Source: Gammaproteobacteria bacterium | Lineage (GTDB): Bacteria > Pseudomonadota > Gammaproteobacteria > UBA6429 > Thiohalophilaceae | DNA length: 35,545 bases | Direction of reading: 5' to 3' | Assembly (NCBI GenBank): GCA_029881995.1 | Contig: JAOULO010000035.1 | Coordinates: 1 to 35,545, forward strand | Shown here: positions 9,162-16,238 of the stretch, one piece after another | Layout of the letters: each line of letters opens with the position of its first letter | Numbering within the stretch: the first letter of the stretch is position 1 | Made by a program: the position numbers and the translations under genes | Notes under the pieces: model-generated | Database searches by the model: none | The model's input: only the letters and a program-made list of their open reading frames with translations | Told to the model about the DNA's origin: nothing

Positions 9162-11947
<2,786 letters not shown>

Positions 11948-11971: not shown

Positions 11972-12146
11972 TTTAAAACGTCTCAGACGCTTTCAGACAA
12001 GGCAAAAATAAAATTTAAAAGCGGAGTTTTGTACATGGATGCACTTATTTCGCGAAGCCCATGGATGGGCGAGAGCGAATGTACCAATGTAAATGCTCCT
12101 TTAAAATTTTTTTAACGCCGTATGGAAGCGTCTGAGACGTTTTAAA
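11972..12146. mobile_element. MITE-like 175-bp inverted-repeat element between smc and zipA
   Basis: The element is bounded by perfect 21-bp inverted arms at 11972-11992 and 12126-12146 (core CGTCTCAGACG facing CGTCTGAGACG, flanked by TTTAAA at both ends). Imperfect inner arms follow (AT-rich AATTTAAA tracts, GTACAT near 12031 and 12081) and a central hairpin GCCCAT-GG-ATGGGC lies at 12057-12070. It has no coding capacity. The structure fits a non-autonomous miniature transposable element. The outer TTTAAA is palindromic, so it could be the target sequence. The smc stop codon TAA (12142-12144) lies inside the right arm, and the zipA ribosome site is just outside the left one. The element would fold into a long hairpin in the smc-zipA transcript. 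Confidence 0.8.
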
Positions 12147-15100
12147 CAGCTGCGAGTTTGACTGCTTCATCCACATCCACAGCGACCAGACGCGAAACAC
12201 CAGGTTCATGCATGGTCACACCCGTCAGGTATTCAGCCACTTCCATGGTGACCTTGTTGTGAGTGATAAAGATAAACTGCGTGCGATCTGACATCTCCTT
12301 GACCATCTCACAGTAACGACCCACATTGGCATCATCCAATGGTGCATCCACCTCATCCAGCATACAGAAAGGCGCCGGATTTAGTTCAAAAATGGCGAAT
12401 ACCATCGCCACCGCCGTCAGGGCTTTCTCACCACCAGACAACAGGTGAATGGTACTGTTACGCTTACCCGGTGGGCGGGCCATGACCGTGACACCGGTTT
12501 CAAGTAGATCATCACCCGTCATTTCCAGGTAGGCATGACCACCACCAAACAGGCGTGGGAAAATATTCTGCATACCTGTGTTGACCTTATCATAGGTCTC
12601 TTTGAAGCGGGTACGGGTTTCCTTGTCGATCTTGTGGATGGCATTTTCCAGTGTAGTCAAAGCCTCCGTCAGATCGTTATTTTGCTTATCAAGATATTCC
12701 TTACGCTCTGACTGTTGTTCAAACTCATCAATGGCCGCCAGATTAATCGGACCAAGACGTTGAATACGTCGTTCGATCTTCTCGACTGACTCAGTCCAGG
12801 CCAATTCTGTCGCTTCTTCAGGTAGCTCTTGCAGCAGGGTTTTGAGTTCAAAGCCGGTTTCCACTATCTGCTCTTCGATGGTCTGACGTCTTACCTTCAG
12901 TTCCTGGCCACCAATTCGGATATCGGCCAGCTCATCACGTACCTTCTGCACACCCTGCTCGGCCTGAGCACGGGCCTCATCCAGTTCACGCAACTGGTGT
13001 TCGATATTTTCCAGATCGGTTCTAGCCTTATTCAGTTCTGCTTCAATACTGACCCGCTTCTCAAGATGGGCTGCCAGTTCTGTTTCCAGTTCGTGAATGG
13101 GGGCATCACCTTCAGATAGTGCAGCCTTGAGTTCTTCACGACGGCCACCCAACTGCCTGAGCTGGTTGTCCATACGATCCAGTGCATTACGTGTCGAGGA
13201 CAATTCGGTTCTAAGTGTTTCTGCACGTAATTTAACCTGATGCGCAACCTCACGTTCAGCCTGGGCTGATTCTTTTGCTTCATCCAGTGATTGACGGAGT
13301 TCATCTCGGCGGTTAGACATCGCCACCCGCTGCTCACTCAATTCTGCAACCACTTTCTGTGCTTCAGCAAACGAAGACGCTGAGTTTCCTTTCTGGGCCT
13401 GCTCAGTTTCAAGTTGAGTATTTAGTTCGTCCAGTTCACGTTGCAGATCTGACTGACGTTTCTTGACCTGTTCCAGTCGCAATTCAAGCGCACCCAGTTC
13501 TGCCTTGTTCTCTGCATGAGTGCGATTGGCCTGGTTAAGTTCAGACTGGGCCGTTTCACTCTTTGCCTCAAGTTCACGCAACTGTTCACGTCCAGACTCA
13601 AGAGCGGCATAAAGCTCGTCGACCTTTTTACTTTCCTGTTCAATTTCCTGGGCCAGGGTTTTCAATTCCTGTTCACGTTTAAGAACACCAGCACGCTCAT
13701 CCTTATCACGGGTGACACGTAACCAGCCAGCACCGACCCAGAGGCCATCTCTAGTCACAACGGATTCGTGGGCCAACAGATTATTTCTTACGGCCATGGC
13801 ATCCTGCAAAGAATCAACGGCATAAACACCATCGAGCAGGCCTTCAAGATGCCAGGGAGCCTTCACCTTCTCCAGCAGTCGATTTGCTGTAGTACCATTG
13901 TTACTAACAGGTTGTACGCTGGTATCAAAGAAGCTGACGCTACCTTCGGTAAAATCGGTGACGGCACTGGCCAGGGGATCAAATCCATCTACACAGACCG
14001 CCTCAAGATAACTACCCAACACACATTCTACGGCCTGTTCCCAGCCATTTTCCACGTCCAGTTTTTCCGCCAGACGTGGCGCACTGGATAGATTCTGGTT
14101 ACTCAACCATTCACTGATGCCTTCCTGGTGTTTACCAAGGGCGGCCTGTTGCAGAGCTTCCAGTGAGGCATTGCGACCTCTAAGGTCCTGCAGGGTATTA
14201 CGTGCTTCATCCAGTTCGGCTGACTGGGTGTGGCTGGACTCTCTAAGGCTGGCAATCTGACCTTGCAGTTCAGTGGCCTGTTGCTGCTTGTTCTGTAAGG
14301 TCTGTTCGCTGAGTAACAGGGCCTGTTGTTTTTCGACTAATTGCGCATCCAGTTCCTCATGAGAATAGGTTGCCAGTTCATCACGGGTTTTATCGCGACG
14401 GCTTGTCAGTTGTTCGATGTGTTGCTCAAGATGGGCACTACGTGCCTGCTCCACATCCACCTTGCGATTGGCCTCGGCCAGTTTATGATTGAGTTCTTCC
14501 CAACCGGTCTGCCAGGTATGCATAGCCTGTTCGGCGGCTGTCATCTCCGATACGGAACGGGCCTCACCTTCCTGTGCCTGGTTTAAACTAGGTTCGATCT
14601 GTTGCAGTTCGTTTTCCAGTTCTTCGATACGTTTGCGGTCAGTTTCCAGGTGAGTCTGAGCATTCTGCCAGTCTTTTTCCAGCTGAGCACTGTCATGCTG
14701 TTGCTGCTGACGCTTTTCCCTGGCGTGTTGAATTGATTGTTCAACACGGGCAATATCAGAACCTACACTATAGAAGTGGGCCTGTACTTTATTAAAATTC
14801 TCATTGGCTTCAACGTGGGTCTCACGTTGTTTTTCGATATCCGCTTCTACTTTTCGCTGCGTGGCAATGGCGGCTTCAAGATCTGTCTCTTTGGTAGATA
14901 AGGCCAGATCGATTTCTGCGGCCTTATCATTCAACGCCTTCCAGCGCAGGCTTTGTAACTGGCCCTTTAACAGGCGTTCTTCTTCACGCAGCACTTTATA
15001 ACGCTCAGCCGTTTTGGCCTGGCGCTGTAAATGATTTATCTGTTTGCCCAGTTCGTCACGCAGATCGGTGAGACGATCCAGGTTATCGCGGGTATGACGA

Positions 15101-15651
15101 ATGCGGTTTTCGGTCTCGCGACGGCGCTCCTTATATTTGGAAATACCTGCCGCTTCTTCGATAAAGGTACGCAGTTCTTCCGGTTTGGCCTCGATAATAC
15201 GAGAAATGGTGCCCTGTTCGATAATGGCATAACTGCGAGGCCCAAGGCCGGTACCCAGAAACAGGTCGGTAATGTCCTTGCGACGACAGCGGGTGCCATT
15301 CAGATAGTAATGGGACTGACCATCACGGGACACACTACGTTTGACAGAAATTTCATTGTACTTGGCGAATTCTCCCCCAAGACGTCCCTCAGTGTTATCG
15401 AACACCAGTTCGATGGAGGCCTGACCAACGGGCTTACGGGTACTGGAGCCGTTAAAAATAACGTCCGCCATGGAGTCACCACGCAGGTGCTTGGCAGAGC
15501 TCTCCCCCATCACCCAGCGGACGGCATCGATGATATTCGATTTACCACAACCATTTGGCCCAACAACCCCGACCAGCTCACTGGGAAAGACAACTGTGGT
15601 GGGGTCAACGAAGGATTTGAATCCGGCTAGCTTTAATTTTCTTAATCTCAT
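12142..15651 (-). CDS. smc: Chromosome segregation ATPase Smc
   Basis: Smc is the core of the bacterial condensin and organises and segregates replicated chromosomes together with ScpA and ScpB. The 1,169-residue protein has the standard layout: N-terminal Walker A GPNGCGKS, coiled coil to about residue 500, a hinge rich in Gly and Val (about 500-660), a returning coiled coil, then the ABC signature LLSGGEKA (about 1,070) and Walker B MLDEVDAPLDD. I choose the ATG at 15651 because homologues begin MRL..LKLAGFKSFVDPT. An in-frame GTG at 15687 would add 12 unconserved residues. Neither start has a clear Shine-Dalgarno. The stop codon lies in the arm of the inverted-repeat element. The gene heads the operon smc-zipA-ligA. 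Confidence 0.97.
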   Translation of the reverse strand: MRLRKLKLAGFKSFVDPTTVVFPSELVGVVGPNGCGKSNIIDAVRWVMGESSAKHLRGDSMADVIFNGSSTRKPVGQASIELVFDNTEGRLGGEFAKYNEISVKRSVSRDGQSHYYLNGTRCRRKDITDLFLGTGLGPRSYAIIEQGTISRIIEAKPEELRTFIEEAAGISKYKERRRETENRIRHTRDNLDRLTDLRDELGKQINHLQRQAKTAERYKVLREEERLLKGQLQSLRWKALNDKAAEIDLALSTKETDLEAAIATQRKVEADIEKQRETHVEANENFNKVQAHFYSVGSDIARVEQSIQHAREKRQQQQHDSAQLEKDWQNAQTHLETDRKRIEELENELQQIEPSLNQAQEGEARSVSEMTAAEQAMHTWQTGWEELNHKLAEANRKVDVEQARSAHLEQHIEQLTSRRDKTRDELATYSHEELDAQLVEKQQALLLSEQTLQNKQQQATELQGQIASLRESSHTQSAELDEARNTLQDLRGRNASLEALQQAALGKHQEGISEWLSNQNLSSAPRLAEKLDVENGWEQAVECVLGSYLEAVCVDGFDPLASAVTDFTEGSVSFFDTSVQPVSNNGTTANRLLEKVKAPWHLEGLLDGVYAVDSLQDAMAVRNNLLAHESVVTRDGLWVGAGWLRVTRDKDERAGVLKREQELKTLAQEIEQESKKVDELYAALESGREQLRELEAKSETAQSELNQANRTHAENKAELGALELRLEQVKKRQSDLQRELDELNTQLETEQAQKGNSASSFAEAQKVVAELSEQRVAMSNRRDELRQSLDEAKESAQAEREVAHQVKLRAETLRTELSSTRNALDRMDNQLRQLGGRREELKAALSEGDAPIHELETELAAHLEKRVSIEAELNKARTDLENIEHQLRELDEARAQAEQGVQKVRDELADIRIGGQELKVRRQTIEEQIVETGFELKTLLQELPEEATELAWTESVEKIERRIQRLGPINLAAIDEFEQQSERKEYLDKQNNDLTEALTTLENAIHKIDKETRTRFKETYDKVNTGMQNIFPRLFGGGHAYLEMTGDDLLETGVTVMARPPGKRNSTIHLLSGGEKALTAVAMVFAIFELNPAPFCMLDEVDAPLDDANVGRYCEMVKEMSDRTQFIFITHNKVTMEVAEYLTGVTMHEPGVSRLVAVDVDEAVKLAAV

Positions 15652-15749
15652 GGCCGGGTAAGATACAGGATCGGCATTCGCGATCACAAGATTGATTTTT
15701 GGAAAATATGACAGCTTCGTAAACTATTTTTTTCATCTAGAAATTAGCC

Positions 15750-15780
15750 TGTGCATAACTTCTGTATAAGCTGTGAATAA
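15750..15780 (-). promoter_or_regulatory. Three DnaA-box-like 9-mers at 11-bp spacing upstream of smc
   Basis: Read on the minus strand, the 9-mers are TTATTCACA (15772-15780), TTATACAGA (15761-15769) and TTATGCACA (15750-15758). The first and third fit the DnaA consensus TTATNCACA perfectly and the middle one differs at one position. All three point the same way with exactly 2 bp between them, so they are helically phased. An AT-rich stretch follows to the smc start (about 15688-15745). This could be a DnaA-controlled smc promoter region or a DnaA-titrating or origin-like site; neither is proven. Confidence 0.55.
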
Positions 15781-15804
15781 ATCTTCAGGCACCACAAAAT
15801 CAAT

Positions 15805-15818
15805 TTAGACTTGTCTAA
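15805..15818. promoter_or_regulatory. Small inverted repeat upstream of queF
   Basis: TTAGAC-TT-GTCTAA is a 6-2-6 inverted repeat ending 30 bp before the preferred queF ATG and lying between the DnaA-like boxes and the gene. The size and symmetry suit a dimeric repressor operator, but no matching regulator is visible in the window. It could be fortuitous. Confidence 0.3.
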
Positions 15819-15848
15819 TATATGGTCAATCCTGTATCTTTGCCGCCC

Positions 15849-16238
15849 ATGAGTACAAAACCATCCAAGACCCTCGAAACCTTCGAGAACCCCATGCCGG
15901 AGCGCGATTACACCATCCGAATCGAGATTCCGGAGTTTACCTGCCTGTGTCCCAAGACTGGACAACCGGACTTTGCGACCCTCAATATCGAGTATGTGGC
16001 CGACAAACTGTGCGTGGAACTGAAATCCCTCAAGCTCTATGTCTGGGCATTCCGGGAGGAAGGCGCCTTTCATGAGGCCGTGACCAACGCCATCCTCGAT
16101 GATCTGGTCAAAGCCACCGAGCCACGCTTCATGCGCCTCACGGCAGAATTCAATGTGCGTGGTGGCATCTACACTACCGTAGTGGCCGAACACCACAAAC
16201 CCGGCTGGCAAGCCCCACAACGGGTCGAACTGCCCTAA
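15849..16238 (+). CDS. queF: NADPH-dependent 7-cyano-7-deazaguanine reductase QueF
   Basis: QueF reduces the nitrile preQ0 to the amine preQ1 in queuosine biosynthesis, in the cytoplasm. This is the short, single-domain (YkvM-like) form: 129 residues from the chosen start. The catalytic cysteine C34 lies in [10 protein letters not shown] with the partner D41, and the family motif ELKSLKLY is at 57-64. I prefer the ATG at 15849 because family members begin [12 protein letters not shown]; an upstream in-frame ATG at 15822 would add nine unconserved residues. It is followed after only 6 bp by the FGGY kinase, so the two are co-transcribed. No preQ1 riboswitch fold is apparent in the leader. Confidence 0.95.

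Follow-up and report, generated by a model that had tools for sequence, protein, structure and literature searches.

Three phased DnaA-box-like sequences between smc and queF in a gammaproteobacterium: a candidate lineage-specific DnaA site

In this work we describe an array of three phased DnaA-box-like 9-mers between the divergent genes smc and queF of a gammaproteobacterial genome. Our best explanation, to which we give about an even chance, is that the array is a recent, lineage-specific DnaA-binding site in a divergent promoter region, possibly tuning smc and queF. What we observed directly is the array itself with its spacing, that it is unique in the assembly and resembles the DnaA-type sites recurring in the lineage, and that the relatives read lack it. 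The window analysed is the whole 35,545-nucleotide contig C81 of a 3.53 Mb gammaproteobacterial assembly in 132 contigs. The three 9-mers are the following:

15772..15780, minus strand: DnaA-box-like 9-mer 1, TTATTCACA, exact match to TTATNCACA
15761..15769, minus strand: DnaA-box-like 9-mer 2, TTATACAGA, one mismatch
15750..15758, minus strand: DnaA-box-like 9-mer 3, TTATGCACA, exact match to TTATNCACA

On the minus strand, positions 15750-15780 read TTATTCACA-GC-TTATACAGA-AG-TTATGCACA. The original prediction of two exact 9-mers and a third that is off by one base agrees with our box scan of the window, and the array has a total of one mismatch in 24 fixed bases. The 9-mers 1 and 3 are the sole two exact TTATNCACA matches within the 35.5-kb window. 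The predicted common orientation and exact 11-bp phasing are also found, with all three boxes on the minus strand and 2-bp gaps between them. The placement directly upstream of smc was loosely worded: the array does lie upstream of smc, but its nearest box is 98 bases away from the smc start codon (ATG, first base 15651), and the queF ATG (15849) is closer, at 68 bases. The AT-rich lead to the smc start is present but modest, the intergenic region of 197 bp having 38% GC. The genes and putative promoters of the neighbourhood are:

9162..11171, minus strand: ligA, NAD-dependent DNA ligase, 14 bp after zipA
11186..11947, minus strand: zipA, with Pfam ZipA_C above the cut-off and TIGR02205 just below it, 194 bp downstream of smc
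12142..15651, minus strand: smc, TIGR02168 at 1164.7 bits, starting with the ATG whose first base is 15651 and not with the longer GTG frame to 15687
15660..15690, minus strand: putative smc core promoter, CTTGT at 15686-15690 and GTATCTT at 15660-15666, kept in many relatives
15810..15840, plus strand: putative queF core promoter, CTTGT at 15810-15814 and GTATCTT at 15834-15840, the mirror-image arm
15849..16238, plus strand: queF, TIGR03139 at 172.9 bits, divergent from smc, starting with the ATG at 15849

The choice of the smc start rests on the alignment with relatives, and relatives also support the queF start at 15849, upstream of which there is another in-frame ATG at 15822. The CTTGT and GTATCTT words before the two ATGs have the look of core promoters whose mRNAs would be nearly leaderless. 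We suggest a nearly leaderless mRNA for smc because the putative core promoter is so close to the ATG, and the same may be true of queF. The array is upstream of both putative core promoters and overlaps neither of them, with about 60 bp between it and the putative smc -35.

The words around these starts are worth describing in their own right. The smc and queF starts (15647-15671 and 15829-15853) are 25-nt mirror images at 88%, including GTATCTT and the ATG. In 23 of the 79 named gammaproteobacterial loci (L004-L083) with sufficient upstream sequence, the smc ATG is preceded at 12-14 nt by a TATCTT-like hexamer (variants allowed), a count made without a control; many of these loci have CTTGT about 18-19 bp ahead of the hexamer. 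GTATCTT itself is found at the smc starts of at least 8 of 30 loci, which is an undercount since the start is set a few codons early in some. The smc-queF intergenic regions of L096 and L099 are packed with repeated GATACAAG/CTTGTATC words, as if the promoter words had multiplied.

Boxes with at most one mismatch number 30 across the window, against a shuffle mean of 38.9. There is no excess, and the signal is therefore one of clustering and not of count. A base-composition model predicts about 2e-7 to 1.4e-6 three-box arrays (2- or 3-bp gaps, no more than one mismatch overall) in a 35.5-kb window, and about 2e-5 to 1.4e-4 in a genome. This model treats bases as independent, leaves tandem duplication out of account and was set up once the array had been seen. 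Within that model, the original view that a chance cluster is unlikely stands. Among the three 11-bp units, variation hits all three unconstrained columns and one of the eight fixed columns, a pattern with a chance of 0.024 given four variable columns. A relaxed three-unit pattern made from the array finds no second copy within 3 mismatches elsewhere in the assembly, and at that threshold there is no genome-wide regulon of the same three-unit repeat.

According to the available text of PMC11317965, the ChIP-defined double boxes preferred by E. coli DnaA have the same direction, lie 2-3 bp apart and are needed for binding, and pairs weaker than those of the smc/queF array are tolerated. We used a corresponding double-box rule: two same-direction boxes with a 2- or 3-bp gap, one mismatch being allowed over the 16 fixed bases. 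Applied to the own genome, this rule yields five loci:

C104:80339: double box 134 bp from the dnaN frame, in an oriC-like cluster of four boxes
C61:7954: double box beside an adenosylcobalamin-type (nrdJ-type) ribonucleotide reductase
C123:8772: double box before priA
C25:55623: double box flanked by thrB and a TRAP transporter gene (DctQ), with polA about 1.5 kb away
C81: double box at smc/queF

Across 40 family genomes, the own genome included, there are 115 matches, 77 with 3-bp and 38 with 2-bp gaps. By nearest gene they divide into priA (28), dnaA/dnaN (25), thrB/TRAP/polA (32), nrd/degP (12), smc (2, at one locus) and unassigned (16, of which 5 lie on contigs of the genome G060). Reversed-pattern controls on the same genomes give 3 and 2 matches, one of them in the own genome. 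The double-box rule is specific for the four recurrent loci. Because 97 of the 115 matches fall at these other four loci, which adjoin replication-linked genes, and the controls give only 5, the smc/queF array can be said to resemble the DnaA sites of its lineage. Outside the four recurrent loci and the repetitive G060, 12 double-box loci (smc included) compare with the 5 control matches, so that an unconserved pair would by itself say little; having a third phased box, the smc/queF array makes a stronger case than a lone pair. Three-box arrays with at most two mismatches were found at eight places, namely smc, one G060 contig, nrd (3), priA, thrB and dnaA/dnaN, in a census that takes in all of the 40 genomes for up to one mismatch and the fetched loci for two. 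A simple rule thus recovers a recurrent set of DnaA-type sites in a gammaproteobacterial family, and this set can serve as a reference for spotting newly gained sites such as the smc/queF array.

With two or more same-direction boxes 2-3 bp apart, the array has the form of a DnaA-regulated promoter site. It shares with the double boxes of the E. coli DnaA regulon (PMC11317965) the common direction, the 2-3 bp gap and the location upstream of a replication-tied gene, but it has three boxes instead of two, is unconserved and is a predicted DnaA target only. The E. coli DnaA targets named in the available part of that paper do not include smc. The low-affinity arrays of E. coli oriC, as described in the accessible portion of PMC4451416, consist of consecutive boxes in one direction with 2-bp gaps. 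The smc/queF array has the same arrangement with exactly 2-bp gaps, but two of its three boxes are consensus, there are just three of them and the array is unlikely to be an origin. The nrd sites of G027, G035 and G016 (L132, L202 and L248) likewise comprise three boxes in phase and in one direction ahead of a gene; their gaps are 3 and 2 bp, and they are directed away from the reductase gene, unlike the boxes of the smc/queF array, which are directed towards smc.

Unlike the priA and thrB/polA sites, the smc/queF array does not recur across the family. The search for smc in 58 relatives left 7 without a match, and the upstream reading covers the 30 family smc loci fetched, own included; each of these has, no more than 900 bp from smc, a queF-like sequence in the divergent orientation. 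No double box was found in the 300 bp upstream of smc in the 29 other loci: a double-box scan allowing two mismatches covered 25 of them, and a single-box scan the other four (L088, L104, L109 and L110), where it gave at most one single box upstream of smc. The 300 bp before smc in 80 named gammaproteobacterial loci, two of them with short upstream sequence (4 bases in L041, 111 in L067), contain no double box at up to two mismatches either, and some (L030, L063, L068 and L076) have two unpaired single-mismatch boxes upstream of smc. The named loci and the family genomes overlap by coordinates (L005 with L094, L004 with L091), so the regions are not all independent.

The congeners G001 and G002 both retain smc/queF, and over the SMC N-terminus they match the own protein at 87 and 86% identity. 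Identity is 37/47 and 38/47 over the smc core promoter and 18/31 and 13/31 over the box stretch. The flanks give similar figures to the latter (17/35, 16/35, 10/29 and 9/29), which means that the box stretch diverges about as the flanks do. The array is absent from the aligned region of both congeners. In G001 the place aligned to 9-mer 3 reads TTATAAACA, and two single boxes with one mismatch lie unpaired at -204 and -107. What the original prediction named as its refutation, boxes not conserved in close relatives with the smc/queF arrangement, is thus what both congeners show, and they keep the smc core promoter too. Conservation in close relatives, which would support a DnaA-regulated site without being required for one, is not seen here. 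We take the relatives' lack of boxes to count against a conserved function, and not against a young lineage-specific one.

Several other explanations have to be considered. The array might be bound by DnaA and still have no regulatory role, being a minor titration site or a neutral by-product, such as an 11-bp tandem duplication of a chance box in a fast-changing intergenic stretch. We regard this as a real contender, although less probable than a lineage-specific regulatory site. The missing conservation and the divergence of the box stretch in step with its flanks would fit it, the exact 11-bp tandem boxes on G060 contigs demonstrate that such arrays can arise by repetition, and single exact boxes are frequent enough as a seed. 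Plain decay after duplication, however, predicts something other than fixed columns kept in 7 of 8 cases and free columns in 0 of 3 among the units (a tiny sample), and the array is found within a promoter region, with a cluster of replication-linked genes next to it. That the array is a product of chance or duplication without appreciable DnaA binding seems improbable to us. The lack of conservation, the mismatch in the middle box and the five control double-box matches in 40 genomes (one in the own genome), by which chance pairs do occur, would be in line with it, but the composition model predicts no more than about 1.4e-4 arrays of three phased boxes with one mismatch in a genome, the array is unique in the assembly and E. 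coli DnaA tolerates weaker pairs (PMC11317965).

It is very improbable that the array serves some other regulator, either one that uses 11-bp repeats or one whose operator overlaps it (PhoB/OmpR type, ArgR or CRP). In favour of this, direct repeats of 11 bp are also typical of PhoB-type regulators, and there is one ARG-box-like match with two mismatches at 15772-15789. The consensus scans nevertheless give no support to PhoB, ArgR or CRP sites: the ARG-box match is at chance level (1 against 0.97 expected) and there are no Pho-box matches within 3 mismatches, while 18 CRP-type matches compare with 20.0 expected and none is at the array. The three-unit pattern also has no second copy in the genome. 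The least probable reading, for which we see hardly any room, is an origin-like element, as in the original prediction, or a secondary initiation element. Phased one-direction boxes beside AT-richer DNA would suit it, but the boxes number just three, none besides them with at most one mismatch occurs within 2 kb, and an oriC-like four-box cluster is found beside dnaN on another contig (C104), the usual neighbourhood of such boxes in the family. An oriC would be recognised by a box cluster beside dnaA/dnaN or by a skew switch; the array has no such neighbours and GC skew makes no sustained sign change in the window.

Our preferred reading is the recent, lineage-specific DnaA-binding site. The mismatch of the middle box and the distance to the putative smc -35 count against it, together with the absence of the array from relatives. 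By our own estimate DnaA quite probably binds the array, and it could do so cooperatively, on one helix face, given three head-to-tail boxes with 2-bp gaps. Bound upstream of both putative core promoters, DnaA would modestly shift the transcription of smc (possibly together with zipA-ligA), of queF or of both, and the shift would follow the level of active DnaA. An effect of the array on smc or queF transcription is a more tentative proposal, which we consider somewhat less probable than its absence, and its direction and target gene are what we infer. The coupling of smc expression to DnaA and the titration of DnaA, both suggested originally, are possible. A bolder and rather doubtful idea is that the smc-zipA-ligA cluster (condensin, divisome, ligase) might be under direct DnaA control through this newly evolved array. 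The DnaA regulon of the family would then consist of a stable core (oriC, nrd, priA and thrB/polA) and lineage additions, smc here and perhaps dnaB in G018, and chromosome organisation would be dosed by the replication initiator. If the array does have a regulatory role, condensin expression would be linked directly to the initiator DnaA. Among the literature matches listed, which are far from exhaustive, none reports a link between DnaA and smc expression. The localisation of SMC in dnaA(ts) cells is the subject of PMC1188057, judging by its available text, and the phrase 'upstream of smc' in PMC4414408 concerns, in the portion available, the locus tag SMc00888 instead.

The recurrent element at priA and thrB/polA is perhaps more interesting than the smc/queF array itself and deserves its own study. 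Its own-genome copies are L114/L126 (G000:C25:55623-55643) and L148 (G000:C123:8772-8792), and counterparts exist family-wide. We inspected the geometry at 26 of 28 priA matches and 30 of 31 thrB/polA loci, leaving out L166, L225 and L219. An exact box precedes the 3-bp double box by 171-184 bp in all 30 thrB/polA loci, with all boxes in one direction. At priA the distal exact box is 166-190 bp from the double box in 25 of 26 cases, L242 being cut by the contig end, and an inverted box lies 26 bp after the double-box start in all 26, exact in 25. IHF-consensus matches, lying between the distal box and the double box, occur in 21 of 23 thrB and 13 of 25 priA stretches scanned, without a shuffled control. 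The available part of PMC4585315 describes E. coli datA and DARS2 as combinations of DnaA boxes and IHF sites, and the priA and thrB/polA elements resemble them in kind. The element looks like a datA/DARS-type control element. A site of that type would have a distal DnaA box and an intervening IHF site; at the smc/queF array no distal box with at most one mismatch was found within 2 kb.

Some further observations concern the DnaA-type sites of the family. In the own genome (L125, G000:C104:78000-88500) a stretch of about 6 kb containing other frames separates dnaA from dnaN. In most family matches both genes adjoin the box cluster, and in G001 and G010 just dnaN is found near it, as in the own genome. 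In G018 a one-off 3-bp double box (L181, G018:C2:923553-923573) lies between an rplI-like frame, assigned by eye, and the replicative helicase gene dnaB; it is a possible second lineage-specific DnaA target. The other lone double-box loci (11 less that of dnaB) are in or beside genes without a clear replication role, judged by eye from translations. Finally, the contigs C11 and C200 of G060 (L128, L135 and L137-L139) carry exact tandem TTATCCACAGG units near small frames of no assigned identity, perhaps a mobile element with iteron-like DnaA boxes.
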